A DNA stretch of 64,000 nucleotides from Apostichopus japonicus (taxonomy: Eukaryota > Echinodermata > Holothuroidea > Aspidochirotida > Stichopodidae), in the NCBI RefSeq assembly GCF_037975245.1, contig NC_092578.1:12570321-12634320 (forward strand). The letters run 5' to 3'. Position 1 is the stretch's first letter; the number at the start of each line of letters is the position of its first letter. A program made the position numbers and the translations under genes. The notes under the pieces were generated by a model. The model was given only the letters and a program-made list of their open reading frames with translations, searched no databases and was not told where the DNA came from. Shown piece by piece: positions 3,301 to 54,410 of this stretch.

Positions 3301-6300
3301 CACATTGTCGATGTTAAGGGTGTGACTGCTTAATTTTCTGTAAATGATATTCCTCTGTGTTTACAACCTTCGTTTCAAGGACATTGAATACATGTTTGTG
3401 GCAAAAGGCAAGTTTTTGAAATGTTTTATTGTCTTCTTTGAGAAGAGGAACATCACATTATTCAAATGATATATGTGGGCTTGTAATTAGGGGTTAAATT
3501 ATTAAAGGCTTAAATGAGAAATTCTGATGAGCGCAACACTCTTACGATATAGTTTGCAGATATCTAATAAGTATTCCCAGATTTGTCAATACTTCAATTG
3601 TGTAAATCTCGGAAATGAAAGAGAGCTTTTCGAAAATTTCAACAGATTTTGAATGAGGTGATCACACACAACCAATGTACTGAATATTCATGAGGCAAAT
3701 TGGATAGCAGTCCGAAGACCTATCTGTATGGTAGAATCTGTATGGATTCATTTACTGTTTATTTGGTATTGGTTTGTATGACAAAGAAATAGATCAGGAT
3801 GTTGAGTAAATCTGCCCTTTTAGTGAACAGACGACAATCGTAACGATAATTAAAAGCAGTCTTAAATAAACCTGGAAAAAAAAAGTTTATTTGAAAGTGA
3901 CACTTGAAGGTCTGCAGTCAATGGAGGAGACATGCAACAGACTTCATATCTACAGATAAAAGACATTTGCGTCAGCAATTCTAAACTCAAAGAACTGGGC
4001 CTAAACTCAAACGGGAATCCTTTCTTCATCACAGATTCAGCTGATAACTGAAATTGAAAGACGAGGCCTGACAGAGAAAGGACTTTACCGTGTGCCTGGA
4101 TCAGAGACCAGCGTCAAGGATCTGAAGGAGAAACTGCTACAGAATCGAGAAGCCAATCCATTTGTGAGTTTCATTACGCTGCATCAAAATTATCTGCAGT
4201 AATCATATAATAACCTGAAACATTTATATTTTCAACCATGAAAGATTGGTGTTCTGATTATAGAAAGGTACATTTTTTTCTGTGCTAAGTTCATGGTCTA
4301 AACAGCTAAGAAATTAACCTGATTTTGTATGTTGTATTATCCTCAAGATTGTGCAGTTTGCACAATGTACTGTTATATTTTTTGTTAAAAAAATGCTCCT
4401 TATCCATCTTCTGTAGTTCAACTAAGTGTTCTATTGATTGTTATTGTTGCTGCTGTCCTGTGAGGCTAGAAAGTAAGAGAGATAACTGTTACAAAGATGT
4501 GAAGATCTCTCCAGAATTAGTTCATAAAATATACTCTGTAAGAGTTGGATTAGGGGATGTGATCATCACAACAAATGAACTATGACATTTCATTGGTTTA
4601 TGTTAATGTTGCACATCATTTCTTCAAATAGTAAACAATAACTTTAATGTAATAACGAATGTCTCTGTTAGAGCTTTGACTTATTAGTCTTCTGCCTTTC
4701 AACTCTTTTGAACGATCTGGTTGATTTGAGATTCCACTCTTTCTCTGACAGGATAAGATATACGACATCCACGTCCTCAGTGGCACTCTGAAAGACTTCC
4801 TTAGGAAACTAGCCGAACCGCTTGTGACTTTTAAGCTCCACCCTAAATTTATGGAAGCTGCAGGTTAGTATTAGATGAACTCCTCTGGATTCTGATTCTT
4901 TCCAGGTTCTTTTTTACTTGAAAAGTTGAAATGAAACAAAATAGATTCTAGCCCTACAATTATTTCCTTTGTAGGCAACTAATAATTTAAGAAGACTTGA
5001 ATCATCTTGATCATTCTATCATTGGGATTTAAGAGTTGGTTATTGTTTGGTACAGCCATAGGTTACTAGGGAAAAGTGCTGTTATGCAACTTTAGTAACT
5101 TGCTATATTTTGTTTATTGTTTCATACAGTAACACATTTTTTTTTGAAAACTCGAAAATTTGTCATTCAGAGGGTAACAGTTTCATTATTCTTGGCTTTG
5201 TTTGCCTATAAGGATAACTCTTCTCCCTGAGGTAAACAGTGCACAATTGTTTTAGTTTAGTAATTTAATAATGTTGGGTGGGGGGGGGGATACATCAGCT
5301 AATTCATTGTTTCCTGCTATTTCTGTGGATAAAAAAATATATGAGATACTGCATTACAGAGTCTGACTAACACCTCTAAGTAAAGTAGTTGTTAATGTAT
5401 ACTAATGGACCATTATGTAAAGTTAGATCACTCATTTTGGTAGAGCTTGGGCCTCTCAACCGCACTTTTATTAATCCCAACTCCAGCCAAAGTTGGCTTT
5501 GCTTTCTTCGAAATATGTTTACAGTGTCCTGGACAGGTTTCAGTTTATCCTCTTCTTCACAGATGTACAACTTTACACATATTCTGTTCAATGGTTTCCT
5601 ACGTCCTTTGTCCTTCCTACTTCTTGTCTACAAATATCGCATCCAACTATTCCTTCCTCCTCTCACAGATATTAATGATATCGATGACAGTTTGACATCA
5701 ATCTATCAGGCTATCAGTGAACTCCCCATGGTGCACAGAGACACGCTGGCTTATGTTGTCCTCCATTTACAACGGTTAGTCTCACCCTCAGGCTATCCAA
5801 AGAACCCTCTTTTTTAAAACATTCGACTAATCAAATCTATAGTTGGCTTGCATTCAAAGGGTTTGAGTAGATAACTTTGGTATGAATGCAAGGAATTAAG
5901 AAGACATCTGATTTGGTGAGGTTCTATGACACTTATATGACATTGGATCAATACTCTCTCATTTCTTTGGGAGGGGGAAGGGGGAGGGGAGGGGGAGAGT
6001 GAAAACAGATTTTGGGCAAAGTTGAAGTGTATCAGAGTTGTTAATTTTATTTGTCAGTGCGTCTGTTACTTTGAAGTTGTCTGTCAGTCTCTTTTACCGG
6101 TGTTCCATTTCTTAGAGAAGAGTTACTGAATCATCAGATTAAGGGGAGAGGGGGTGGGGGGGGGGGTTTGTAGGGCAGGGATTTTGGGCAAAGTTGAAGT
6201 GTACCAGAGGTGTTAAATTGATGCGTCTGTTATTTCAAAGTTGTCTGTCAGTATCTATTACCGGTGTTCCATTTTTTAGAGAAGAGTTACTGAATCATCA

Positions 6301-9300
6301 TATTAATGAGAGCTGGGAGGGGGCTGTATTGCAGGGAATTTGGGCAAAGTTGAAGGGTATCAGAGTTGTTAATTTATTTGTCAATGAATGCATCTGTTAA
6401 TTTGAAGTTGTCTGTCAGTATCTATTACCGGTGTTCCATTTCTTAGAGAAGAGTTACTGAATCATCAGATTAAGGGGAGTGAGGGGGAGGGGGGTTGTAG
6501 GGCAGGGATTTTGGGCAAAGTTGAAGTGTACCTGAGGTGTTAAATTGATTTGTCAGTGTTTCTGTTATTTTGTTCTTGTTTGATATATCTGTCTGTCAGT
6601 CTTGATTACCAGGATTTTGTTTTCTTTTTTTTTCAGAGTTGCTGAATCATCAGATTGTGGCATGCCAGCATCTAACCTTGCCAAGGTGTTTGGTCCTACC
6701 GTTGTTGGACACGCATCCAAAGACCCTGAACCCATGGTCATTATGAACGACACCCGGCTCCAAGCACCGGTAAGTAACCCTACCTGTAGGTAATATAACA
6801 TAAGGCTTCTGAAATCATACTTACAGTTGGAGCAGTAGCACCAGTAAGCAGCCCTATCCAGTAGCGTTGGGCGATATTTGCTTTTTAATGTCACGATAAA
6901 TAGTTCAAAAATTATCGCGATACTTCGATAATTTTTTCTTGTTGTTTTTAGTGTGTTCGCGAACACACTATAAACAATTGCCGATTTCCCACCGGTGTTT
7001 TCACGCAGCAAACACACCGAGCATAATGGCGTGGGGTTCAGGGCCCGCCTTAGAGCCCCGTTGGGGTCAAGGGGTGGAACCCCTTGTGGGGGTCCAGGGG
7101 CGAAGGCCCCCGGAAAAGTTAAGTATTTTTGCGTGTATGTCGATAAAAAATTCGCAATTGAGGATTCAAAATACCGACTAACTTTATGAATTAAAATTGT
7201 CACGAAACTGATGAAAGTTTTAAAATGACAAGTTAGAGTAGCTATATTATGTGATAAAATGAAAAAAGAATTAATCTGTCTTACAATCTGTCTTAATCTG
7301 TCTTTACTTACAAAACTGTCGATATTATGAAACAAACTACGTTCGGCAAAGCCCCGTTTCTAGACTGCCTAACAATCAGTTTACAACTGCAGTGTTTAAC
7401 CGTACTTAAATATCACGGTAGGGTAATGTGCTTCAAATTTTCGCAGGTACCTTGCAAAACAACCCCCCTGTCTAACACCTGTTTGTTAACATTTTTGGCA
7501 CGGTTCCAAAAATCTTTTCATGGAGTAAACTTTTTTGGCTCCACCCTAGAATTAATTAGGTCAGTCAGTAAAGGATCCGTAAAGTTTACCTTAGACGTTC
7601 AAGGAAAGAAGGTAAATATCCCCGTAACATTAAGGTAAGTAAAACACACCTCAAGCCAACCGACTCCTCCGCATGAACAAAACAAACTATTCCCCATGAT
7701 ACACGAGGCACAGTCTATACCATACAGACATACTGTAGCACGATATCAAGGCCCCAATAGCTACAGTATGGCCATCTTTATGAAAGTAAACCTTGTAATT
7801 CCATGTTTTAGGCCACCAGGCGTGATTAACTTAATGCTAAATATTGTTTCCATGTCATTGTAGAAATCGTCAACTTCGCAAAATACAATTAGTTGTGTTT
7901 TTGTTGTTACGTGAGATCCGTAACGGACGAAGTGGTTAGGCTACTTACTATACACTTAACTATGGTAGGATATTATTATTTGGGAAATTCTAGAAAATAC
8001 TTTCTTTCCCCCGCTTTACACCATATGTGGTCTTCTGGTTTATTCATAAATGGGTGTACTAGAGCCTTGTTTACATGACACTTGTTGCATTTAGCACGAT
8101 ATGCCAGTTTCGCGTGAATTTCTCGAAAGTATTTTGCTCGATCTTTCGTAAAATTAGAAAGGTGTACCAACTTACTTTTCGTACACAATTGGTAATTTCT
8201 CTACTGATTTTCAGAGTTTTGTTCTCTATACAGTCAATGTTGTAAAGAACAGGTTTTCACGAAGTTCAAAAGTCAGTAAATGAAGTTGATAAAATATTTC
8301 TTTTCAACTTTCTTAACCATGGAATGCTAGAATAACATTTACACATAAAACGGAGAATTTTTTTTCTACATCTATTTCAAATTTCTTTCACAAGAAATTA
8401 TCGTCATTTGTTCAATCCTCAAAAAATATCGTCTTGAAAAAAGATTATCACGATAATAATATTTTTCGATATATCGCCCAACCGTGTTGGTAGCCAGTTA
8501 GTAGCCCTAGTTGTAGCCAGCAAATAGCCCTAATTGTAGCCAGTTAATAGCCCTGTCGGTAGCCAGTAAAATAGCCTAGTTGTAGCCAGTTAATAGCCCT
8601 GTTGGTAGCCATTAAGTGCTACAGTTGTAGCCAGTAAATATCCCTTGTTGTAGCCAGTTAATAGCCCTGTTGGTAGCCAGTAAATAGCCCTGTTGGTAGC
8701 CAGTAAATAGCCTAGTTGTAGCCAGTAAATATCCCTATTTGTAGCCAGTGAATAGCCCCATCCATAGCCAGTAAGTGGCCCCAGTTGTAGCCAGTAAATA
8801 GCCCTGTCTGTAGCCAGTTAGTAGCCACAATTGTAGCTATTATGACACCTGTGTACAAAGCAGAGGTGAATAGCTGTTGGCAATTTTAATGAACCCAGGC
8901 TCAAACACCAGTGAGTGTATATCGATAATATATGAATGTGTTTCCTTCGAAAATTTCAGGTAATGGAGAGGTTTCTCTCAATCCCTTCTGACTTTTGGAA
9001 ATCATTTACAAATGTGACAGCAAATGGACCACAGGAACACTCTAATGTGATAGCGAACCCTAACACTGGAACTCCTGGTGCTGGACAAGGAGGTAAGGAC
9101 ATTGACCTTTGGTGGTGACTGTAATTAACAGAGGTCATTTCATGGTTTTAATCGACTTATCATAATTTAACATTGTACAACTTAAGTGCATTCCTCACCG
9201 GACACTTTTAACCCCATCTAATCAGAGGGCTGCAGTCAGCTGCTAATTGGCTAATTCATCTGATGGCAATTAATCCTTCCATCCAGACTGTTTTATGCAA

Positions 9301-17443: not shown

Positions 17444-19639
17444 CCAGATAGGGGTTAAGTGAGGGGGGCTACAGATAGGGGTCAAGTGAGGGGGGCTACA
17501 GATAGGGGTCAAGTGAGGGGTGTCTACAGATAGGACTTAAGTGAGGGGTGTCTACAGATAGGACTTAAGTGAGGGGGGTCTACAGATAGGGATTAAGTGA
17601 GGGGGGCTACAGATAGGGATTAAGTGAGGGGGGTCTACAGATAGGGGTTAAGTGAGGGGGGCTACAGATAGGGGTTAAGTGACGGGGGCTACAGATAGGG
17701 ATTAAGTGAGGGGGGTCTACAGATAGGGGTTAAGTGAGGGGGGCTACAGATAGGACTTAAGTGAGGGGTGTCTACAGATAGGACTTAAGTGAGGGGTGTC
17801 TACAGATAGGACTTAAGTGAGGGGGGTCTACAGATAGGACTTAAGTGAGGGGGTCTACAGATAGGACTTAAGTGAGGGGGTCTACAGATAGGACTTAAGT
17901 GAGGGGGTCTACAGATAGGGGTTAAGTGACGGGGGCTACAGATAGGGATTAAGTGAGGGGGGTCTACAGATAGGGGTCAAGTGAGGGGGGCTACAGATAG
18001 GGGTCAAGTGAGGGGTGTCTACAGATAGGACTTAAGTGAGGGGTGTCTACAGATAGGACTTAAGTGAGGGGGGTCTACAGATAGGGATTAAGTGAGGGGG
18101 GCTACAGATAGGGATTAAGTGAGGGGGGTCTACAGATAGGGGTTAAGTGAGGGGGGCTACAGATAGGGGTTAAGTGACGGGGGCTACAGATAGGGATTAA
18201 GTGAGGGGGGTCTACAGATAGGGGTTAAGTGAGGGGGGCTACAGATAGGACTTAAGTGAGGGGTGTCTACAGATAGGACTTAAGTGAGGGGTGTCTACAG
18301 ATAGGACTTAAGTGAGGGGGGTCTACAGATAGGACTTAAGTGAGGGGGTCTACAGATAGGACTTAAGTGAGGGGGTCTACAGATAGGACTTAAGTGAGGG
18401 GGTCTACAGATAGGGGTTAAGTGACGGGGGCTACAGATAGGGATTAAGTGAGGGGGGTCTACAGATAGGGGTCAAGTGAGGGGTGTCTACAGATAAGACT
18501 TAAGTGAGGGGGTCTACAGATAGGACTTAAGTGAGGGGGGTCTACAGATAGGACTTAAGTGAGGGGTGTCTACAGATAGGACTTAAGTGAGGGGGTCTAC
18601 AGATAGGACTTAAGTGAGGGGGTCTACAGATAGGACTTAAGTGAGGGGGTCTACAGATAGGACTTAAGTGAGGGGGGTCTACAGATAGGACTTAAGTGAG
18701 GGGGTCTACAGATAGGACTTAAGTGAGGGGGTCTACAGATAGGACTTAAGTGAGGGGGTCTACAGATAGGACTTAAGTGAGTCTACAGATAGGACTTAAG
18801 TGAGGGGTGTCTACAGATAGGACTTAAGTGAGGGGGTCTACAGATAGGGGTTAAGTGAGGGGTGTCTACAGATAGGGGTTAAGTGAGGGGTGTCTACAGA
18901 TAGGACTTAAGTGAGGGGGGTCTACAGATAGGGATTAAGTGACGGGGGCTACAGATAGGGATTAAGTGAGGGGGGTCTACAGATAGGGGTTAAGTGAGGG
19001 GGGCTACAGATAGGGGTCAAGTGAGGGGTGTCTACAGATAAGACTTAAGTGAGGGGGTCTACAGATAGGACTTAAGTGAGGGGTGTCTACAGATAGGACT
19101 TAAGTGAGGGGTGTCTACAGATAGGACTTAAGTGAGGGGGTCTACAGATAGGACTTAAGTGAGGGGGTCTACAGATAGGACTTAAGTGAGGGGGTCTACA
19201 GATAGGACTTAAGTGAGGGGGGTCTACAGATAGGACTTAAGTGAGGGGGGTCTACAGATAGGGATTAAGTGAGGGGGTCTACAGATAGGACTTAAGTGAG
19301 GGGGTCTACAGATAGGACTTAAGTGAGGGGGGTCTACAGATAGGACTTAAGTGAGGGGGGTCTACAGATAGGGATTAAGTGAGGGGGTCTACAGATAGGA
19401 CTTAAGTGAGGGGGGTCTACAGATAGGACTTAAGTGAGGGGTCTACAGATAGGACTTAAGTGAGGGGGTCTACAGATAGGACTTAAGTGAGGGGGGTCTA
19501 CAGATAGGACTTAAGTGAGGGGGGTCTACAGATAGGGATTAAGTGAGGGGGTCTACAGATAGGACTTAAGTGAGGGGGGTCTACAGATAGGACTTAAGTG
19601 AGGGGGTCTACAGATAGGGATTAAGTGAGGGGGGCTACA
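17444..19639 (+). repeat. 2.2-kb G-rich minisatellite, ~27-bp unit, ~80 copies
   Basis: Unit CTACAGATAGGACTTAAGTG followed by AGGGGG(G)T. Variants have GGGTTAA, GGATTAA or GGTCAAG in place of GACTTAA and 4-6 terminal G. The block at 17474-17968 is repeated almost exactly at 17969-18463, giving a higher-order period near 495 bp. Strong G bias on the plus strand. No gene. Confidence 0.97.
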
Positions 19640-19965
19640 GTGGCCAACTAAACTCGTCTGGCGTGGATATGGCTGGAATATGTGTAAGTATATACAAGTG
19701 CGCATCACAGCCCCTATCATAGGAAATATCTAATGTGCATATATAAGTAGATGAACAAATACAACATTGGCTCCATCAATGTATGGTATTCGCATGGGAG
19801 ACTTTACAAACTGCAAATTAATGCTTGATAGAGTTTCAGTAAAAACAAACGCCACATGGCATATATGATACCTTGCTTACTCATTGCTATGGTGATATGG
19901 ATACTACAGTGTACCATTTCTTTTTATCTTGAATAAAACATCGGTAGATGATGCTCATACGGTGG

Positions 19966-24159: not shown

Positions 24160-24205
24160 TCACCTTCGAACCTGACTAGCTATCCACTCTAGGCCTTGAT
24201 ATAAT
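24160..24205 (-). CDS. ARL5: ARL5 terminal coding exon
   Basis: Acceptor CTCTTTGACAG; the first base completes a Gly codon. Encodes [14 protein letters not shown] then TGA. Only 46 nt long, so invisible as an open frame, but the LxQGLEW ending is diagnostic for ARL5. Confidence 0.95.
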
Positions 24206-27200
24206 CTGTCAAAGAGATGAAGAACAGATCATTCATAATGACTTTCTCACAATTACTCTGGCAATGTTAACCTAACTTCTGCAATACTTGCCAAAACAGT
24301 CTGCTACCAGTTGCCTGGACACATTCCTACACCAAACACTCATTAAAGGAATGACCTTTTGGCACAAAATTAGTTCTGATATGTTGTAGCCTGTTAAAAA
24401 CCACTTCTATCAGTCCAGGGAATATCCTTTACACAACTGAGGCTCATCAGTTAAAGTGACTGAAATATGTAGTCTAACACATAGACCATTAGGCCAGTTC
24501 CTCAGATACTACACAACACTCAATGGGGGGAAAAACACCTTTATGGCCTCAAATGAGGTGTTGATAATATGTTACCAATTTGCCAAAGACAAGTGATGTT
24601 GAATATCATATGCAAGAATGTTCTGTTTTTTATATGAAGTTAAAAGAACATGTTTTGGTTAAGATATTGTATAAAACAATGGATTCACATTTATGATTGC
24701 ACTGAGGAGCCAATAGCATCATCAACTTAGTCTTAAAGGAGATTTAGGTTATTTTAAAGGTGAATATCTTGAAATCCAGAAAAGCTAGAGTAAACCTTGC
24801 TGGCACTCAAATATTCCTTTCTCCTCGGTTTATAACATATCAAAACAAAAATTCTACCTAAAGTCATCCTTCAACAAGTTTTAGTTTCTGTTAAATTTAC
24901 TACTGTAATGTTTCGTGACTGCTTGTTTTAATAGTGAATGAAAGCATCGGTAGTAACACTACACTGCTCTGTTCTACACAACCATGACAGCTGTACGCAA
25001 TGTACAATTAATGCTACATGTGACATATATGCATCACTACACTAAAGTGGGTGAGAAACCTGAAGTGCTTTATCGTCCATGCAAAAGAAGGAAGGAAACA
25101 CTATTTCCAATCCATGAGCTACCAAAACTTGGTGGATTATATAAGTAGTTCAAATATCTGGGAGGGTCATTCCCTTTTGAGGTTAAATATATTGAAAGTT
25201 TATCTCAGAGATGCATACATACTTCCTTTGAAAGTAGCAATAGAGGTTGTCTGCAATAGGCAATTGATTGGAGATACACATACCAATAATGGATCAAAAT
25301 TAGCAGATATTACAGCATATCAGCCAATATTGATAATGCATACCAATCAAACACTAACATAAATGTTAAGGTTCATCTTAAAAAAAAAAAATGTTAAAAG
25401 CCATTCAACATTTTGGATAAAAATTTCTGCTTAACCCTTTTGAAAGAAATTCCAAGAAGTTCTATCCTGAATTTTGCAACATTTGTGGAATTCTGAGAAT
25501 TTAGACTGCGAACTTTATTTTTTTATTTATGCAGACTGCCAAAAAAGGCTGCCACCATTATTCAGTTTGATGTCATCTCTACAAATTCAATTAAGGTATC
25601 AGTGTGCGGTCTTAAAGAAGATGAAATCTCGACCTTTGTCATAAACTTAGAGAGAGAGAGAGACCAGTTCCTGCCACACCCAAACAGCTGACAAGAATCT
25701 TCCATTTGGCCCCAGTTTGTTCCTTCATTTACAATATAGATGCCATGAGCAAGTCTAACATGACATTTATGTATAGAAGTGGTATTTACAAGTCTCAACG
25801 TATGTCACATTTAAGTATCAGTTGACTATTAATGTATTGAACAATGTAAGCTTGGATGACTTCCCCTCCTCGAGCACTCTAATAATACAAAGGGATACCA
25901 TTGGCAGTCCCATGACAGGAAATAAACACTTGGACATTTTGGAAACAGAACTAAATTGTTTCTTGGTTTATGGGGTGTTTTCAGCAGATGCTTCAAACAT
26001 ACGTACATACATACAAACATACATACATTTCTCTATAAATAGTCCAGGTGACAGCCTATATGTGCTCATAGACAGAAGCACCATCCTGTGATTCTTGCTT
26101 ACCCTTCCCCTGTTAGGGCACAGCAAGCTTGTATATTCCATTTGTGATCCTTAATTGATGTTAGGTTCAGGTGTTGAGAGATCTCTGCGGGGGTCATTGA
26201 TCCCTTGACATCTTGTTTGTTGGCGTACAGGAGCATGGCAGCCGGTTTAAGATCCTGTCAAAACGAACCACAAAAAGTCTCAACCCTATTAAAGCTGCAT
26301 ATGAACTTTGAAAGGATTTAATAGCAAATAATGGAGGAAGCCTCAAACCTACCAAACTTATCCAAGCATGTGGTGTAAAACCGCATATATACCAGACATT
26401 TTAAAGAATCTGTGATTCCATATATACGTTGGACACCAGCAGCATGGTTGCAATTCTCAGGTATTATTCCAACCTCCCAGCTGTGATGTGGCTTTGGGAA
26501 ATCTTCTTCAATTAGCAACACTTTACAGATTTCAACATTCATCAAGTTGCTATAATATATCAGAAAGCCCACAAAACTCAAGAACGTTATCCTTTATGAA
26601 TATGAGTAATGTTACAAGCATTGGATATTCCGAAAGAGTATTCTCTCCCATTTCAGGTGAAAAGAACTCTTTCAAGAACAGACTCTTAATAGATATCTTA
26701 CCTCATTAGCTAACATGTTGTACAATTCTGCTTTGCTGACATGTAACCTCTCTCGGTCTGTACTATCTATGACTAAAATAACAAACTGTAGGAAGAAAGG
26801 AAATAATAATAGTTCAAGATCAGACAAATCAAAGACTTATAATACAGATTGCCTCTCTAAGTGGCAAGTATGTGACACACATATGAGCTGAACCTGTTGT
26901 ATTGCTTTCCATTGTGGGAGGTAAGCTACAGTATACAAGCTAACTTTATCATACAAACTGTCCCTCACTCAATGTGTTAGCTACACTGTAGCTGCTACAG
27001 TATATAAGCTAAAAATGTCACACAGACTGTCTCTAAATGTGTGAGAGCTTACTGGTTAAAGTAAAAGCTGCATTTATCGAGCAGGTGGTCTTCCAGGCTA
27101 GCTTAGTTACATGATTATTTACTGATCAATATTATTAAAACAAAAATCATTGCCATTATGAACTGCTTTCAAATGTTGAAGAAACATACTTTCAAATTTG

Positions 27201-28917
27201 AAATACTAATGTCCAGCAGAGAGAGCTGTGCTCCTGCATAGTAAGTTCATTTCACTAATGTACTTACATGTGTTCCTGCACAGTAAGTTCATTTTAATAA
27301 TGTACTCACATGTGTTCATGCATAGTAAATTCATTTCACTAATGTATTCACATGTGTTCCTACATAGTAAATTCATTTCACTAATGTATTCACATGTGTT
27401 CCTGCATAGTAAATTCATTTCACTAATGTACTCACATGTGTTCCTGCATAGTAAGTTCATTTCACTAATGTACTTACATGTGTTCCTGCACAGTAAGTTC
27501 ATTTTAATAATGTACTCACATGTGTTCCTGCATAGTAAATTCATTTCATTAATGTATTCACATGTGTTCCTGCATAGTAAATTCATTTCACTAATGTACT
27601 CACATGTGTTCCTGCATAGTAAGTTCATTTCACTAATGTACTCACATGTGTTCCTGCATAGTAAGTTCAATTCACTAATGTACTCATATGTGTTCCTGCA
27701 TAGTAAGTTCATTACACTAATGTATTCACATGTGTTCCTGCATAGTAAGTTCATTTAACTAATGTACTTACATGTGTTCCTGCATAGTAAGTTGCCCAGG
27801 CAGACCTGAGTGATTCTTGGCCACCAATATCCCACATTAGGAAATGGATATTTTTATATGTGACTTCTTCTACATTACTGCCAATGGTTGGTGAAGTGTG
27901 TACAACTTCATTCATGAGTCTGGAAGAAAATCATAAACACATTACAGAGAATAATGTATCCGGTATCTCATCGCAAAATGGTCAAATTGATACAAGTGTA
28001 AAAATGTTTATAGCAGCTGTTGTACACAGGAACGATCATATTTTATTAGAGACAAACCTCGCAGCTACACAAATTAGAAATTATCCCCTGCATTACACAT
28101 GTATGAAGATAGGTATCATACTGTACTCTTTGTATTATATAATCAAAAGAGTTACATGGGTGGGGAGGGGGGGGGGATTGGGTGGAGGGAAAGAACTAAT
28201 AAAATGGAGGTTAAGGATCTCACAGGATCTAATTAATGTATGTGTTTAACAGCCTAACAATTTAACAGTATATTTATATGCAGATAACCCTAGGTAATAC
28301 AGTGGGCTAATCTGCAATCAAGGTAATGTAAACTTGTTGGTGTTGGTATTTTAATTATTTTTTCCAAACAGTTCAATATTAATATCCCAAAACACTGCAC
28401 ACCAGTTTTTTAACTAGTTACGTTCCACTTATCGACATTTTAGAAACTTTTTGCTTTTGCATGTGGTTTCATGAAAAAGTGGCTGGGTGAAGAGAATTGT
28501 TGAGGATTAATTAAAATTATGAATGCATAGTTCTCACTGGGTAATATTTGGTTTTCATTTGATGAAAAAAAGCTAGGATATCTGGGTGTCATCTTTTGTA
28601 ACCTTATTTTGAGTAATCCTTCATCGTTTCAATCAATTGATGACCAAATGCAAATTGTTTGCTTGACTACAGTAGGGTATGTTAAACAAAGAAGTGTACT
28701 TACATTTGATAAAGAATGGTCGTCTTACCAGCATTATCCAACCCAACTATGATCACCTTGTACTCTGTGAAGAAAAAAATAAATAATACATAACACTGAC
28801 ATTAATGAGAAAAAAACAGAAACAAACAAAACCAGAGTATGAAGACCCTCCCAGTAGTTAACTGTCTTGATATATATGTATATATAGATATATATATATA
28901 TATAGATATATATATAT

Positions 28918-28951
<34 letters not shown>

Positions 28952-31900
28952 TATATAGATATAGATCATATATATATGTCTTGCAGAATGTTATATGATC
29001 AGGGAACTACAACTTGGGAACTAACTCAATTCAAAAATTCTTCTAAATCATCTTTTATAAGGGATTATAAACACAAAACTGTCAACAAGATCATTATCAA
29101 TGACCCAATTGCTCTAAAGGAACCTAGTTTATTCCCTAGAGAACATAGCAGTTTTGTCAAATTTGTCCAAACTGGCAAACACATGAAGTCTGCCACCAGA
29201 ATGGAGTCCCAGTTATACCAGTACCCAAAATATTGTTGCCATTTCTGTCACTACAACTATAGATGATCAGATAATGGTTGACCTGTTGTTAAGGTCAAGT
29301 GGTGAAATTTGATAAACTGACTTCAGCATACTGCCTGTATTTAATGGTCAGAAGGAAATCATCTTTTAGTGGCACTTTGCTATATAATCTTTGCCCTCTT
29401 GATTAGCTGAAATTAGCAATGACATCTTACAGCTGTTATGTACAATGATATGGTATGGTGAGAGGGAAATACTACTGAAAGTATGCACATGAAATACTAC
29501 TGTGAGTAGATGTTTGCAAGAACAATTAAGTCTAGGTTTCATATGCATGATGTTTACTATACAGTCCACTGTGTCCTTTCACATACTGGATTGCTGAAAC
29601 CAAGGCTGATCATTATCTGATGATGTTTTCTTTAAGTCAGAAAAAAGTTGGAGTCATTTTTTTAGTAAACTTTCAATGACCTTCTATGCAGTGTTTTTCC
29701 CACTACTGAGTGATAAAAGTGGTCAACATTGATCAATATGAGGTGCAGCACACATGATGATGAATTTCCAAAAGGTATAAAAAAGGATTTAACACTGTGA
29801 ACACTTATAACCTTGGTGTAAAATATGACTGTCAATATTCCCTTTTTGAGATATCATGTTTACAATGTTTTCAGGTTTTCAGATGTCTCTGTTGAATTCT
29901 TATGACGTTTGACCTGTATACAAATATGTATAATGTAGACATTATACCCATCATTTGAGTAATCTTTCATGCACATATAAACAATGACCAAATTTCGGTC
30001 TTTGAGAGATACTGTACATGTAGTTTTCACATTTTGGTAACTGCTGACTTTAAATAACCTTTGAACTCCACCGAAAACATTAGGGATCTTCATGATAGGG
30101 AAGCCATATGTTAAATATGAGATCTCATGGAGTTTCCTAGCTTGAGATATTGTGCTTACCAAGTTTTCAGGGTTTGACCTCTGATGACCTTCAATGACCT
30201 ACACCTAATAGTGTAAAATCTTTACATTTCATACGGCGATCATACCCATGACATATGAGCTCCTTTGTTGATCGGGTTCTGGAGATTTTCACATTTTGCC
30301 CTCTGCTGACCCCAAATGACCTCTGACCTCCACCTAAAACAACAGGGTTCTGGTACTAATTAGGGGGAAGCCACATGCCAAATATAAGAATTACAGCGGT
30401 TACTCATCATGAGATGGGGTGTTTACAAGCTGGGCATCACATACAAACACCTACACAAGCACACACAAACTTGACTGCATACAGTAGGTTACTTGCCTGC
30501 CTATTACAGGTGAACAAAAATGGGGAGGGTTTTGTCATTTATTGGGATACAGACTATTAAATAATCAGTACGTAAAAGATAATTGATGACTTTTGGCACA
30601 AAATTAATTCTGATATTGTGGAAATATAAAAAACCGCTGCTATCAGTCAAGGTTAAATTTCTATACCACCTTTTATATTTGAGAAATGACCCTTAAAAAA
30701 ACAGCTGTGGTCCATCAGGTAAAGTGACTGGACTTTGCAGTCTAATACACAATGAGGTCAGTTCTTCAGATGCAACACAAACAAGTTTACACAAACACAT
30801 ATGAAGTCAAAAGAACATGATTTGTTTGATATCTTATAATTAATAAAACAAAGGAGTAAAATTAACAATATTGAAGACCTGCAATGAGGAGCCAACTGTC
30901 ATGATCAATTTAATAGCCTTAAAGGAGCTTTCCTGAGACTATATCTATTTTTAAAAGCTGATTATCTTGAAAACCAGAATAGCTATAGAAATATTACCAG
31001 CATTAGTTTTTTTGTTCTTTGTTTTTTGTTCTTTTTTCTTGGACCATAACACATTAAGACTTAACTTTTGCCTAAAGTGGTCATCCATGAAACAAAATAA
31101 GGATAGTGCACATGTAGTTTAATACACACTTAACCTCAGAGCCATTAATTTGCAAAAAGCAACATTCAAAATTTCACACGCACACAGATATACAGGAAGG
31201 GAGGGTTGGAGGAGGATTATTCATCCCAATCAAGTTATAAACTGCTGTTGACAAGTACATATTCTAATGATGAAGGACAAGTTTGAAATATAAATAAAAA
31301 AATGAAAAAGAAGCAATTTTTATGTTATTTCCCATCTGCATGGAAGTAAAGACAATATGTATAACAGCCCACAATTACATTTTAAGAATGGTTTTAATAA
31401 ACAGCAAGAATCCCACCAGTAACTACTATCTATGTCTTATCAGGTGATATTACAGTACAGTAGCTTGCTGGTCAGTTAGATGAGAAATGTTTCAGCCCTT
31501 GATTCCTTCAGTACTTGCAAAATAGACTAATGGGCAGAGTTTAATAGCTATAACATATCTTGTTATTAAAATGCTGCCATAGATGTCCACAAATGTTTAC
31601 TTTGAACAATCCTGGAATGTCATGGTGCTGGTAAACAGCTGTTGCCACAGAAAGTATATTAGCTGCAGAGTGCATCAACTGAACTCACGAAATACAGAAC
31701 GGTATTTTGTACCCAGGTGTAGCACTTGATGGGAAAACCTTCAAGGGCAAACATAAACCATTCAAAAAAAAGAGTAAACAGTAGAATAATATGCCTACAT
31801 CTTACCAATGAGACATACATGTGTGTACAACCACTGTACTTGAAAGGACTACGATGATACATACATGTGTGTACAACTACTTGCAAGGACTATGATGAGG

Positions 31901-34900
31901 GTCCAAACACAGCATTGCTTCATAGTGGTTATACTTTGACCCAAAGATCACAGTACATCATTAATGCCTTTAGCCAACCAATGTGACATCACATGTGTGT
32001 ACAAGGGCGTAGGAACCGGGGGGCGCCAGCCCCCGGTGAAAAATATGGGGGGGGCGGAAGTATCATTCCACCCCCCGCTCCACAAGTCAAAAAACCCCTT
32101 TTTCATTTCCAAATGAGAAAAAAATCTCATTTGGAGCACCAAATTGCATCTAAGGCCAGGTGAAAATGCAAAATTATTTACAAAATGGAGTGGGATGTTG
32201 AAGTGTGCTATATTGCACCAAATTGCATCTGAGGCCACCTGGAAATTCCAAAAAAATCCAAAGGGGAGGGGGACACCCCTCCCCTTAGACCCCTCCCCCA
32301 GGCCGGCCATCAATCTTCAGCCCCCCCACTCAAAATTACCTTCCTACGCCACTGTGTGTGTACATTATCAACTTTAAACTTAAAAGTCATCAGTATTGCC
32401 CCCTAATATGCTAGAATGTCACATAATGGTCTCTATAGCTAAAGAGATCTCTCACTGACAATGAAATTTCACCAAGTTTAAGTACTAAAAGAAAGATCTG
32501 AATATATCTTCTGTGGGTTTCTTGTTAATCTACTTGAAGTATCATTCATTGCCAACAATTAAAGGATAATCCCCATTGTCAAATAAGCTTAAGTCCAACA
32601 GACCTAACATTTATGATTTATCTCCATAGCCAACCCTCCTTTGTCATAAGCTTATGTCCAACAGACCTAAGATTTATCTCCACAGCAACCACCTTATTGC
32701 CAACAGATGTCACACCCTTAGTATGACCTACAATAAGTGACTTTACTTTAAGAAGAGAAAACTTTGCAGCTGGAAAACTACTTGAATGAGGACAAAGGCA
32801 TGGTTTGACATTAACAATGAACCAATTAACATGCTGTTCTTAAGAGTGCAGTACTCATCATCATTATTAAGTCTCTTTTAAGTCTTTCTATATCAGTCCT
32901 GAATACAAAACACCAGAACTTCTCTTAAAGCAGCACTAAATCTAAAGACTTTTATCAATTGCATATCTGTAACCTGACTCTAATAACTCAACTATGTAGC
33001 ATTTTTTTCATTTTCCTTTGAGCTTGCAAATTACTGTAGGATTATCCCTAGGAAGAGGTTTGATGGGTGGGAGGGAGGGGTGTTACTTTAATGAAGCACA
33101 ATCCTATTTGAATAGTACAATGCTGCTGAGAGCAGATTCATATGTGTAGTCTGAATTTCCCAAACAGTACTGGTGTTGGCATTAACCAACAAAGATACTC
33201 ATTGTACTGAATCAGTTAGATTCAGTATAGTACCGTAGAAGCCAGATGGGAAAGTGCTTTATTTCCCAAACAGTACTGGTGTTGGCATTAACCAACAACG
33301 ATACTCACTGTACTGAATCAGTTAGATTCAGTACAGTACCGTAGAAGCCAGATGGGAAAGTGCTTTATTTCCCAAACAGTACTGGTGTTGGCATTAACCA
33401 ACAACGATACTCACTGTACTGAATCAGTTAGATTCAGTACAGTACTGTAGATGCCAGATGGGAAAGTGCTTTAATATGGATCTGATACAGAAAAGACAGG
33501 AGTGAAGTATAATTGCGGTAATTTAGCAAAACCAGCGTCTGCAGTTACTATACAATACATTACATAGTTAAATACTACAGACTTGGTCGTACTGTACTGT
33601 ACAGTACTTAACTGATCAGACTTTGACAGCTACAGTATTGATATTGGGTACTTTCACAATTAACATTAACTACATGAAAATTAACATTAACTCCACTGCC
33701 AGTAAAACCATCATGACTCATACTATACTTTGTAAACATTTGATTTCTAACTTGAGTAAAATATTCAGACTAATGTTTGCATCATCATCAAACCCACTGA
33801 TATGCAAGTATTCCACAGTAATACAGGACATGTTTTTTTATTTATTTATTTTCTTATAATGATAGGTCATGATACACTGTTTGTTTTGAAGTCAGCTGTT
33901 ACAACAACCCTCCATTTTTTTTTTTTGGGGGGGGGGGGGGGGTGAGATTGCCATTGTAATACATGTTTTCTCTATGCAATATATGCAATGTTGAACGTCC
34001 TTTAAAAGTAATCTGTGACTCAATTTGTCGATTACAGTACATGCTCATGAAGGTATGCATGTTTGAAATAGTTAAAAAATCAACAACTGAATAAGTTTCA
34101 ACAAATAACTGTGTTAAACTTTCATTTCTGTTTGTTTGTCATAAAGAGTACCTACTGTACCTGGTATATCCTATACCTAGTGTACCTCATACCTGGTATA
34201 TCCTATACCTGGTGTACCTCATACCTGGTATATCCTATACCTGGTGTACCTTTGGTATATCCTATACCTGGTGTACCTCTGGTATATATCCTATACCTGG
34301 TGTACCATTGATATATCCTATATCTGGTATACCTCATACCTGGTATATCCTATACCTGGTTTACCTCTGGTACATCCTACACCTGGTGTACCTTGGTATA
34401 TCTGGTGTACCTGGTGTATCCCATACCTGGTATATTCTATACCTGGTGTACCTCATACCTGGTATATTCTATACCTGGTGTACCTCTGATATATCCTATA
34501 CCTGGTGTACCTCATACCTGGTATATTCTATACCTGGTGTATCTCATACTTGGTATATCCTATACCTGGTGTACCTCTTGTATATCATATACCTGGTGTA
34601 CTCATACCCGGTATATCCTGTAGCTGATATACACTATATCGGTATATCCTGTACCTGGTGTACTCAATGTCCATGTAGCAATACCAAGTTCATCACTAAT
34701 TTTGATGATGTCAAAGTTTGCTTTGGTTAATCTGGTATACCACGTCGGGATAATTTATGTGAAACCTCATAAATAGCAAAATGGTATATATGCTGGTCCA
34801 ATTGCTATAGTTGCAAAGATGTATAGCAGTTTTATACACAGGAATCATAGTATTTCATAGACCAAATGAAGGGCCCTCAAAACTGCTAATGAAAATTTGA

Positions 34901-37900
34901 ACACTATCCTACAACTCAAAATAAAATAAAACTGTTAACAAACTGCTCATCCACTAGAGAGCCTGTGTAAGAGAATGTGTAAAAGTAAGTTGGCCTGACA
35001 TTTCGATCCTAGCAGGATCTTCTTCAAAGGCTAAATGACTTGTCATGCCCATGTTTATTATTAAATTCATTATTTTGGACCGTATCAAGTTTATTTAAAG
35101 ATAACAAAATGCTCTGCAAAATAGTCACATTGCTACACAATGCACCACACAGACACTGTACTTTTGTTTTGCACACAGAATGTTAGCATTTCCAATGAGT
35201 TTTCGGACCAATAAGCTTCATAATCCACTCAAAGCTGCAAGGCAAAAAGCAACACTAGTAATATATTCTTGCATACCTAAATAGGTTTCAACCAAATTTG
35301 CTCCAGTTGATTTTACCCATATTTAGTATAATAAATGCATCACAGATGAAAAGACAATTGATGAAATTGAAATTTGCATAATACATTAATAGTTATTCAT
35401 TTGTGATTTTTTATTTATACAAGAACATGATCAGCTCAGATAATGATGAGAATAAAAAATGGTATGTACACTGGTATACATATGTTGTATAAAAAATATG
35501 TGCCTCCCCATTGTCCCCCTCCCCACCCCTCTCCCACCCCCTCAAGTATATATATATGCTCCCATTTCCTCACTCCCCTCACTTTTACACCCACATTTCA
35601 GTCATAATTCACAACAGGGAAGGTGTATAGGATAAAAGCTACTGTATTCATAAGATCATATCCCAATATCAATACAGGGACTTGTTCCACCATATATGTC
35701 AGCATGTTATACCCAACAATATAAACAAGCACAATGATTTGATAGCCATGTACCAAGATTTTACTGTAGTAGGAGCAGTGTGATGGTGGTGCTCAAGCCA
35801 GCACAGACACATGAGTGGCGAAGTTAAACCAAAGGTCAGGGAGTATAAAAGAAGAGCAAAGCTAGTAATGGATCTGTGGTTTCACAGTTCTACAAATATG
35901 ACAGGGAGACCAATAGGATGATGCAGAGTGAGGTACCACTGTACAAACTGTACACAAGCCATGCTTCAAATTCATTGGTGATAATATAATGTATGGCATT
36001 TAGGCAGTTTGAATATTAAGTCTGTTCTAAATACTACACAGTGACTAGTCATGTAATAATGTTAACTGTATTAATAACAGACTGGTTATTTTTCATTTGA
36101 CTTTTATCTGAAATAATTAGTAAAATCAGGGGAATAATTTACTGTTTTCCAAAGTTTGTGTATGTGCTGTAGCAGTTTTGAAGACTTTGAAAAGTTAAGC
36201 TCTTAGGAATTACAATGATTCCTGTGCACAAAAACCCCCTGCTATATATCTTTGGACTTTGTACAGCAATTTGCAATACGATACCTGATAAATTATTCAC
36301 CGAACATTTATCTCGAAAGAAGCCTGCAGCATAACATGTATACTGTATGAGAACTGGAAGGGAAACATTTAATTGCTAAAGTTTGATATATGATATTTCA
36401 TTGTTGCATTATTATTTTTGCTTTTCTTTCTATTCATATTTATATGTATGGCGCTTTTGACAACTATTTTGTTTATAATTAGCGCATTATAAATCTTAGT
36501 TACTATTTGATACATTTTTTCAACCATAATGATTGATAGTTTTACATCATTTTGAATAAAGTGTACATACATATTTACAAGAGCAGACACACAGGTGACA
36601 GGTAGGAGAGTCGTGAAGTAAATGTCAAGGTTTACTGAAGACGAATGTGCAAAGCAAAAATCATAGATCTGGTGAAGTCCATACTTTCTTTTCAAAGCCT
36701 TTTAATACACTCAGCTTGTGAATAGTGAAATAGTTTTATAAACTTTGTTTCTAAGGGTTCTCAAGACAGCTACTGTACTGTAAACTTAACTTGTATTTTT
36801 TTTTGGGGGGGAGGGGGGGTGGGGGTACTACAGTAGTCGCTGTAAGTTCCTAGTTATAACAACATAATATACATAGTGAGCGGTGTGCGGTGACCCATAG
36901 GAGAGGTCACCGGGGGCGCAGTGCTAAAATTTATACCATTTGTGTCTAGGTAGACTAGGAATGGTGTGTTAGTGTTGTAGGAGACAGGTAAGAGAGGAGT
37001 GAAGTAAATAAGAATATAGAAGACCTGTAGTAAAGACCACATCTCTGATAAGGCCATGTTATGTGGTGTTTAAACTTACAGTATTATATATTACATATGC
37101 TGTCCTGGTCACTCAGTCTCTGGGCATCTATGTTTTCAATTGGCAGTTTAGCCGGGGTACACCCCTCAGTCCGACAAGTTTTCAGTCCGAAAATAAAATA
37201 CACGTTTTCAGTCTGAAAATGAAATACACGTTTTCAGTCCGAAAATGAAATACACGTTTTCAGTCCGAAAATGTTTTCAGTTGGGGAATGAAAGCAGTTT
37301 TAATGCCATAATATCACCAATAAACTGTGACAGCCCGAACTGATAGTAAAGAAATCGATTAAATCTTTCGTATATACTCATAATTGACAAATAAGGAGTA
37401 AAGTTTAGAAAATATATTGGAATTTTCGGTCCCCCTGGGACCTTCGTCAGCAATATTGGCAGTCGAATGAAAAGTACATAATGTAACACAATGAAAGTAT
37501 GACGTTAGGTTTAAAGTGTAAATTGCATTGATGGAATTAGAACCAAACAAACCATGACTGTACAGGAAGCTGATTAAGGAGCGAAGAACGGATTACATAT
37601 GTTTGTAGAACTGATAGTTGTTAAGGGGTCCCAAGTCTTTGTTGAAGCCGGTGATGTGAGACTTAATACAAAAGATTCAATCGAATTTTTTACTATCAGT
37701 TCGGCTGTCACCGTTTATTGGTGATATTATGGCATTAAAACTGCTTTCATTCCCTAACTGAAAACGTGTATCTCATTTTCGGACTGAAAACGTGTATTTC
37801 ATTTTCGGACTGAAAACGTGTATTTTATTTTCGGACTGAAAACGTGTCGGACTGAAAACTCGTTTTTTCGGACTGAGAACGTGTATTTTATTTTCGGACT

Positions 37901-40900
37901 GAAAACGTGTCGGACTGACAACGTGTACCCGTTTAGCCATATCCTTTGACTGGTTCCTCTCCTTCATTGCTAGTACACAAAACAGGCAGGGCAGTCTTAA
38001 AAAGGTTTACTTTAATGGTTTACTCAGGGGATCAATCAGTGGAATTTTAAACCGCTTGGAAGTCAAAAACTCCCCAAATTGTGGATTGCTTATAGGTTTA
38101 AATATTGGATTTGAATGAGAGGGGACACAAAGTCCAAATTTACATGATCCACCACCTAGCCTGAATGACAAGGAGTACAGAATGGTTTAACCACAGTAAT
38201 GGCATGTGGAAACTTTACTCACAGAACAAACACAAACTCAGGCCTGCCTGGAGGTGAAGAATGTGAACCCAGTCACTCAGACCAGGTTACACTGCACAGT
38301 GTTAATTATTCAAGGATATGATAGTGGGCTATACTCACACAGTGGTGCATCTGAACACAGGCAAAGCAACAGGAAGGGTTGCTTCCATTCCTATTGTTAC
38401 AAGCAGAGAGCTAACACAGCTTAGTCACCAAAATTCTCATCAAATAGAGCATTCTCTGGTAATAAATGTTTAAAGACTACACTCATGAATACCATTATGG
38501 ACTATCCAAGTATCCAGGAGGAATAACGGAAGTTCTTTTTCATCTTTACATAATGAGAACAGTTTATTGATCTACATGAATAGTTTACATTGTTACCTCA
38601 TGTATAATGCTTGAAGACTTTGTACTAGTACTGTATCTTATAACGAATGAAGTACTACAATATACCACTTCACAGTGGCCCATACATTACAGTAGCCATT
38701 CTGAGGGCCATGGACAGCAGAAAATCTCTCAATAATACCTTGAAAATATATATGCAAGGACTAATTATTTCTGGAAATTATAATACTTTCATAGTATTAG
38801 GATGTGTGTGGAAAATTTTGCACGAATGAATCTCAAATCTATTTTTCTGCGATACAAGGTTCTTTGCAAACCTATCCTCTAGTTTGCAAGCTTGGGCATC
38901 AAGGCCTTTTCTTATTACTTTGTATATAAGGATATTACTAACATACCATCAAATTAAGTTATCCAAATGTTGTCAAATTCAAGACATGCTGCAAGGCACC
39001 ATGGCAATTTAGAGAAACGAACAAATGGTTAAAGCTGTTTGGTCATCAGTATAATAATTCCTGCCCTGGGATAAAGCACCTGGTTGAAGTCAAATTGCTT
39101 GCCACTTGCACTGTTCCATAGTTGATCAGGGAAAGTATATACAAATATACTTTGTTGATTCAACCAGAGTACAATAACATCATATGTTTAATTACTGTGC
39201 TGTATTATAACACATATATGTAATGCCACTCAAAAGTTGAGCCTGCTAATAGCATATTACACTGTGGATAACTTTCCACTCTGTGGTATTAATAAATATA
39301 TCATAGTAAGGACCTTGAAGCTCTGGCAGTTAATGACCTTAATGTATGGTCACTGAAAAAAAGTTGTCCGACCTTGGCTATGAAAGGGTTAACCAGAGTG
39401 AAGACCCCTCCCAGTGGTTACTTGCCTTGACAGTATACATGCAGAACAAGCTTTCAATTAATTTACCTATTCTGCAGTATATTCTATATGTATATATTCT
39501 ATGCAGTATATTCTATATGTCTTGCAGAATGTTATGTTATCAGGGAACTACTAGTTGGGAACTAACTCATTCAAAAATTCTTCTAAATCATCTTTAGGTG
39601 AAGGATTTTTAACACAAACCTGTCAACAAGATCATTATCAATGACCCAATTACTAAGAGGAACCACTTTACTCTCTAGAGAACATAGCTCTATTTCTTCA
39701 AATTTGTCAGAATTGGCAAACACATGAATTCTGCCACCAGAATGGAGTCCCATTTCTACCAGTACCAAAATATTGTAACAATTTCTGTCATAACATCTAT
39801 AGATGATCAGAGATAATAACAACTCCCTCAAACACCACTTTTTCATCTTAGTGGTAAACAAGCCGTGAGCAATGTATGATTGCATCCATACATATGATGT
39901 TCATAGAGAATAGGGTTACCGTACATTCGGTATTATGGCAAGTCCTTCATACAGATAGGTACCACTGGGGGCCATGCACCAACCCACCACCCCCCCCCAC
40001 CCCCTGATGTTAACTTTCACTCTGATTAACAAAATATTTGAATGTCCCATTGATAACTCCCACATCTTTTGTCAGGGATAAATTGGTAGCAACAGAATTT
40101 GGAGGGAGGTTGTGTTCATTTCTTTTAATACGTTTAGACTATGAAACAGTGCCTTTCTAAACAGATAACCTTTAAAGATTAAAGTTCACAGTTGATTTCC
40201 TAAAATGCTGAATGTTTCTGGACTGACAGCTGTTTCACATTTCAAGTAACACAGAGACAAAGATTTCAATCTAAACTTACTCTACACTTCCTAATTCTCC
40301 TTCCTACAATTGGTCATCAAAATCTGTGATTGATTTCTCTGATGGGACAATTGAGCTTGTCTGACATGCAGAGTGTTGTACTACTATACAGACAGATTAA
40401 TCCCCGGCTACTGCGCGACAGACATGTGTACTCCATCATGTGGTGGTTCACCTGTTCGTCTCGGTCCAATCACTTTTTGGGTCCAGAAACAGGATGTTGA
40501 TTAGTTCAAGCAGTCAAATATGGATACACTCAGCCAGATTAATATTTGTCTCATCTTCTGGAATAAGATTCACCAACTGAAAACAACCCCTGTGGCTATC
40601 GTACAATAGATTTCAGTGATTCTGTCTACTGATTACAGTACAATACTCAAAATAGGATAGGAATTTGATCAAACAATTAAACCCACCAAGATTGTTCCAT
40701 TCTCAGTTTGTACAAGTCCATGAACGTATTGACATGGCCTGCAGTGACATAATCTTACACACAATCAACAACTTCAAGCTGACCAGTTTAAGTACTATAT
40801 TGAGTGTTAAAGGTTAACTGTCATTCAATTTCTTGCATTGCCATTCTTTAAACATAACACTGGAGACAGAATATCTGAAACTAACATGGTGAAGTTATAT

Positions 40901-53700: not shown

Positions 53701-54410
53701 CTAGCCTTATCGTAGTTTCTGTGTGCATGACCTGAGAAGCCGAGCCCCGGTTCAGTGACTAAAGGGCCAACAAATGTTGTTGGAATTTTGCACAGTTTTG
53801 CCTTATTAACCAATGGACATTCCGTGCTTGACCTTGGATTGAGAAGTGAATTCTTTTTATATAAATGTTTAATATATAGGCGATATGCAATAGTCAACTT
53901 CAAATTAAGCGTAAGCACTGCAGGTATATATATGTTTATTATGACCATTTTTCTTTCTGCGTGTCGGCTTTTTGTTTTGTATGCGTTTGACAATGTACAG
54001 CAGTTGCCCTCAGTCTGACCATAAAAGTTTTATACGTCTGCAATAAATAATCTTAAAGCATATAGCCTATGTTGAAACCAATTTACTTCATCTTTAACTG
54101 ATACAAAATAGATCATATTAAAAGTAAATTGTTGGGATAAACGGGTAGGCACATATATACTGAGAACAAATATTAAGGGCACAAGTTAGTAAAGCCGCAG
54201 TAAATATCATTCGTGAAATAAGACATAGGCTAGTGCCTATACTATTATATTTGTAATTGGCATCTCCTGTTTCTTTCCTTTACTAAAAATTGTCAAATTA
54301 CCACCGAAGAAAGAAAAATAAGATTAAAATTGATACATTTGCATGCAGCTCCCGCATCAAATTTTAATGCATTTAATTTATTTTGCAGCACGCGAGTGAG
54401 TCTGCTTCTA

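Follow-up and report, generated by a model that had tools for sequence, protein, structure and literature searches.

How might a gene keep to one 5′ splice site when that site stands first in a tandem row of its own copies? The question arises in a window of 64,000 nucleotides (nt) from the sea cucumber Apostichopus japonicus (C18:12570321-12634320; contig NC_092578.1 of the assembly GCF_037975245.1, which holds 671,581,487 bases in 35 contigs). On the minus strand of this window lies the gene for the Arf-like GTPase 5 (ARL5), whose exons were read directly off the sequence. The 3′ end of its third exon, together with the splice donor and the first bases of the intron behind it, forms the first unit of a 42-bp tandem array that continues into intron 3. 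We consider it likely that this array is a minisatellite born by tandem duplication over the exon 3 boundary, and that it is tolerated rather than selected for splicing, its additional donors being unproductive spares.

Tandem Repeats Finder (TRF) reports a single array at 27227-27793 with a period of 42, 13.5 copies, 92% matches and a score of 952. Read unit by unit on the minus strand, the array spans 27226-27793 and consists of 13 full units, starting at positions 27793-42n for units 0-12, and a 22-nt partial 14th. Each full unit comprises 22 nt of exon type followed by 20 nt of intron type, the donor hexamer being counted within the 20. Unit 0 (27752-27793) is the coding exon boundary itself. 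It contains the terminal 22 nt of exon 3, the donor GTAAGT (27771-27766) and 14 nt of intron. Exon 3 (27772-27919, 148 nt) follows the acceptor TTCTTCCAG, ends at CAT|GTAAGT and encodes a segment that closes with ATYYAGTH. Units 1-12 (27248-27751) are copies within the intron; every one carries a donor-like site, and the GT is kept in 11 of the 12 (unit 2 has AT). Unit 13 is the partial copy, of exon type, with two differences from the exon 3 end. The array occupies 546 nt (27771-27226), or 55%, of the 986-nt intron 3 (26786-27771). A preliminary description of this DNA had built the unit from 22 nt at the 3′ end of the exon and 20 nt of intron with its donor, which both TRF and our reading bear out. 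The array in the following intron is likewise real, although the count of about 13 copies there becomes 12 further full copies and a partial one, and the minus strand had been left unsaid.

The likeness between exon and array is far above chance. The terminal 21 nt of exon 3 recur letter-perfect in five intronic units. The likeness ends abruptly at the 22nd exon base, and of the 20 exon bases that precede it, only 2-4 agree with their counterparts in the units. These features suggest a tandem duplication that would have crossed the 3′ boundary of exon 3, taking in 22 nt of exon and 20 nt of intron.

The direction of copying can be judged from the protein. The joined translation of the ARL5 exons matches the Pfam family Arf (E = 1.2e-64) and, among PDB entries, is closest to 1yzg (E = 1e-77), which was deposited as 'ADP-ribosylation factor-like 8'. 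It is followed by 1z6y, 1zj6, 2h16 and 2h17, named ARL5 or ARL5A (E = 1.1e-75 to 2.4e-75). After these five the next match is an ARF protein at E = 2.8e-50 (among the best 60 of 548 matched sequences). The gene is thus closer to ARL5 than to other Arf and ARL proteins. The exon half of the unit encodes TYYAGTH, in the place of TYYSNTE or TYYTNTE in the solved ARL5 proteins. Alignment to these proteins stays gap-free across the exon 3/4 junction and on into FVILVIDS, which exon 4 encodes. This makes the coding exon the source of the unit, and donor 0, the donor of unit 0, the one that fits the protein. In a genome rich in tandem repeats, an earlier intronic satellite might have overwritten the exon end, or the match might have arisen by chance. 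However, the exon stretch encodes residues common to solved ARL5 proteins, and a search of the 671-Mb assembly with the array matched it at this one place and gave no second. We regard these two alternatives together as very improbable. The search scores its top candidates alone and passes over very common words, and may therefore miss dispersed single units.

The array also carries marks of its growth. Units 3-7 correspond to units 8-12 at an offset of five units (210 bp; 27248-27667), with 0, 2, 2, 1 and 0 mismatches between the paired units, and this correspondence is the mark of a block duplication. The 42-bp unit would thus have multiplied through slippage or unequal exchange, with a block of five units duplicated once. 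Past the last partial unit come 13 unrelated bases and then ACATTAGT, a motif of the intron half, at which the ancestral intron may resume. Of the 22 columns of the exon half 4 are variable, as are 7 of the 20 columns of the intron half (Fisher p = 0.30), so that the exon half of the intronic units shows no sign of being held by selection.

What would follow if a later donor were used? Beyond donor 0 the ARL5 frame reads GTA AGT ACA TTA GTT AAA TGA (27771-27751), which is VSTLVK followed by a stop. The first two letters of this TGA (27751-27753, minus strand) close unit 0, and its third letter opens unit 1. Because the 42-bp period keeps the frame and the TGA follows donor 0, all 12 later sites (11 of them with GT) run exon 3 into the stop. 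Site n would lengthen the 148-nt exon by 42n nt, and sites 1-12 all bring the same in-frame TGA. The frame-keeping period and the GTT AAA TGA in the first intronic stretch had been described exactly. The accompanying claim that any later donor truncates the GTPase holds for each of sites 1-12, and the truncated protein would end after switch II if that region lies in ARL5 where we take it to be. Use of a later site would yield the truncated protein or, as we expect for mRNA extended in this way, degraded RNA. Donor 0 is probably the productive donor, and no later site would fit the protein. Long open frames run through the array on both strands (182 amino acids on the minus and 176 on the plus strand), which follows from a period divisible by three and is no evidence of genes.

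Since each unit carries an exon end and a donor, 12 GT donor-like sites stand in the 13 units of the pre-mRNA. GTAAGT is found in units 0, 7 and 12, GTGAGT in units 3, 4, 6, 8 and 11, and GTGAAT in units 1, 5, 9 and 10, while unit 2 has ATGAGT and lacks the GT. This agrees with the earlier observation that most units have one of these three hexamers (12 of 13). Donor strength was estimated with a nearest-neighbour model of pairing with the 5′ end of U1 and by counting matches to the consensus 9-mer. Donors 0, 7 and 12 share one identical 9-mer, with 8 of 9 consensus matches and a modelled pairing energy of -5.0 kcal/mol. The five GTGAGT sites reach -5.1 kcal/mol with 7 of 9 matches. The four GTGAAT sites are weak (-1.8 kcal/mol, 6 of 9), and the ATGAGT site gives -2.1 kcal/mol in another pairing. 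A row of donors derived from the exon 3 boundary is therefore present as the preliminary description had it, although its word 'near-identical' is too strong for a row with four weak GTGAAT sites and one site without GT among 13. The idea that the first donor wins on strength fails, as its 9-mer recurs unchanged at donors 7 and 12, and modelled pairing with U1 is just as good at the five GTGAGT sites. Strength as the cause of donor 0 use is thereby ruled out.

The identical 9-mers of units 7 and 12 might suggest back-up donors that buffer the gene against mutation of donor 0. The sequence refutes this, because the TGA met from every later site blocks rescue of the protein, unless a second splice inside the array were to remove the stop. 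We give this idea next to no credence.

The same donors could instead serve regulation. Later donors might be used in some cells, or at high U1 or SR activity, so that the TGA sends the extended RNA to decay and the copy number of the array tunes ARL5 dosage. One in-frame stop is common to all 12 later sites, and 7 of the 11 later GT donors equal donor 0 in modelled U1 pairing, which speaks for such a poison extension. On the other hand, exon and intron halves do not differ in variability, and the stop belongs to the intron sequence behind donor 0, so its presence needs no selection. We judge this regulated use improbable. A stronger form, in which the array is a selected splicing rheostat, holds that later-donor use and ARL5 loss rise with the number of units, and that array length sets dosage and varies among individuals. 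This is less probable still.

Could RNA structure single out the first donor? At three window sizes, the predicted unpaired probability of the donor 9-mer is at most 0.045 at all donors and at most 0.001 at donor 0. Donors 1 and 2 have the highest values, and donor 0 is as low as several others. Structure as the cause of donor 0 use is ruled out, since predicted accessibility does not favor it. A possible hairpin at 27745-27771 on the minus strand pairs GUAAGU of donor 0 with ACUUAC in the unit that follows (-6.4 kcal/mol). The 27-nt hairpin has a z score of -2.83, and the signal is gone in contexts of 49 and 84 nt (z = -0.72 and -0.27). No inverted repeats were found in 26600-28000 with a seed of 9, at least 14 nt and a distance of up to 60; the short stem of this hairpin falls below that seed. 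Folding of the whole array compared with shuffles gives z = -5.11 as RNA and -7.23 as DNA. These values are given little weight, because a tandem array can out-fold its shuffles through repeated complementary pieces. The plus strand of the array (27226-27793) has nine copies of GTAAGT against three on the minus strand, because ACTTAC sits in the exon half of the unit. No plus-strand gene was seen at the array, although no dedicated search was made for one.

A row of donors might also act without being spliced. As a U1-loading element, it would recruit U1 small nuclear ribonucleoproteins and help to define exon 3 or suppress intronic polyadenylation. Many U1-matching sites do lie within the 546 nt of intron, and U1 can prevent polyadenylation over up to 1 kb according to an excerpt of PMC5389562. 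Yet predicted structure keeps every donor mostly paired, with 9-mer unpaired probabilities within the limit given above, and across the genome GTAAGT rows show no enrichment relative to a reversed control pattern. Three GTAAGT hexamers with 14-44 bases between them gave 8652 matches (5039 + 3613), compared with 11302 (5700 + 5602) for the reversed pattern; such matches overlap, and the counts are not numbers of arrays. This role seems to us remote, a little more so than a splicing rheostat. Rows of donor hexamers are common and not special in this genome, and the unusual part of the ARL5 array is its overlap with a coding exon.

Because donor 0 is set apart from donors 7 and 12 by neither strength nor predicted structure, its advantage would be positional. 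Donor 0 closes the normal 148-nt exon beside its acceptor and would be transcribed first. In this form the idea of competing donors of which only the first is productive appears sound on sequence. The tolerated minisatellite proposed above would be neutral, and whatever RNA was mis-spliced would presumably decay.

Several points weigh against this explanation. Donors 7 and 12 are neither lost nor weakened, though mis-splicing to them should be costly. This could mean a young array, effective protection by position, or actual use of these donors. In vitro, a downstream donor of equal strength is often the one chosen; if this applies here, ARL5 would need an explanation. The choice of donor 0 as the probable productive site is drawn from protein conservation. 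The motif ACATTAGT, taken as the continuation of the ancestral intron, is weakly significant, its score being reached by 38 of 2000 shuffles. Finally, the array is described from one assembly of one species.

Duplication of splice sequences might also have created something new within the array. GCAG is present in 11 of the 13 units, and a micro-exon reading TATGCAG|GAACACAT|GT was considered. It was set aside, since the implied introns measure 34 nt and the unit lacks a pyrimidine tract. A new intron between copies is unlikely for the same layout, as splicing at the acceptor-like TATGCAG would produce an exon of 8 nt and introns of 34 nt.

To obtain a base rate for arrays at exons, TRF was run on 40 loci with GTPase exons out of 61 fetched, L001 and 20 pattern loci being left out. 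Two of the 40 are ARL5. Among the other 38, no array overlaps the matched coding stretch (0/38), and four loci (L009, L037, L058 and L059) have an array within 60 bp. The sample is small and gives no genome-wide rate; it compares matched stretches rather than whole exons, some loci are neighbors and some genes are perhaps intronless. TRF was run on 5 of the 20 pattern loci, for unit sequence only and without an exon check. Two of the GTPase loci, L009 (1641-1697) and L037 (1713-1770), have tandem duplications in which a unit of 29-30 bp occurs about twice; these lie 27 and 3 bp, respectively, from the matched ends of small-GTPase coding stretches. The beginnings of such arrays near exons may not be rare in this genome.

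Arrays of this kind are already known. The human IFI6 minisatellite supplies several splice donors, according to a title cited in PMC2572611 and PMC4526556. As PMC4526556 puts it in the text available, two downstream repeat units serve as donors, giving three mRNA species whose variants encode isoforms. Judged from these sources, IFI6 and ARL5 both have a minisatellite at an exon end whose units contain donor sequences. They differ in that donor usage is reported and isoforms are encoded for IFI6, whereas the ARL5 array has a 42-nt unit, its later sites bring a stop and it is known from its sequence.

The IFI6 unit is about 12 nt long. The exon-derived unit that carries a stop is the particular twist of ARL5.

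Other relatives share parts of the pattern, as far as the partial texts describe them. The potato RdRp gene contains a tandem duplication over an intron-exon boundary (PMC4974935), which likewise copies splice signals along with exon sequence. The ARL5 duplication, by comparison, is on the donor side, has 12 extra full copies and is expected to create no new intron. Fission yeast genes have multiple tandem 24-bp exonic duplicates that contain AGGT and are spanned by introns (Zhu and Niu 2013, as cited in PMC4974935). These too are serial tandem copies with splice-site sequence, but they create introns, whereas the ARL5 array lengthens an existing one. Intronic variable number tandem repeats in ABCA7 (PMC5954066) and TERT (VNTR6-1, PMC11830802) occur in genes with altered splicing and resemble the ARL5 array as intronic tandem repeats in spliced genes, although the summaries say nothing of units copied from an exon end with its donor. 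No published ARL5 case, and no donor array besides IFI6, appeared in titles or abstract openings among the matches listed, which largely leave subscription literature uncovered. The portions seen of papers on a dog LHX3 intron repeat and on SRSF1 and U1 have no bearing on donor arrays.

The ARL5 array amounts to a clean natural competition assay, in which a single intron offers 12 in-register GT copies of one donor, three of them identical in the 9-mer, and only one choice makes the protein. Such a native gene would make it possible to measure the rule that selects the first among many equal 5′ splice sites. The array also illustrates that a coding exon boundary can seed a minisatellite without a change in the protein.

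The remaining coding exons of ARL5, all on the minus strand, were placed by sequence reading and protein alignment. They are exon 2 (28704-28764, donor AAT|GTAAGT), exon 4 (26702-26785, donor GAG|GTAAGA), exon 5 (26103-26254) and the last coding exon (24160-24205, stop TGA). Exon 1 was not found by a start-motif search of the minus strand over 28770-40000, whose sole match did not fit. The peptide of exons 3 and 4 has 18 matches in the genome; outside the two exons of ARL5 itself, their identities do not exceed 51%. None of the 18 is a processed (spliced) ARL5 copy that would show the junction.

Elsewhere in the window, on the plus strand, a 617-codon open frame (54234-56084, stop to stop) has no Pfam match at 0.01. 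Likely exons of a RhoGAP-domain gene lie on the plus strand at 4005-4199 and 6584-6790 (Pfam RhoGAP, E = 4.9e-8 and 3.4e-4, the second below the curated cut-off), and an array of 3.3 copies of 167 bp (6008-6555) stands directly before the second of them. Tandem arrays are plentiful throughout, with 48 TRF rows, some of which refer to the same array. The longest of those listed has 80 copies of a 27-bp unit (17445-19640). Two further arrays, at 37174-37273 and 37757-37922, lie about 480 bp from each other, with related units of 26 bp on opposite strands, and are perhaps the ends of a mobile element.
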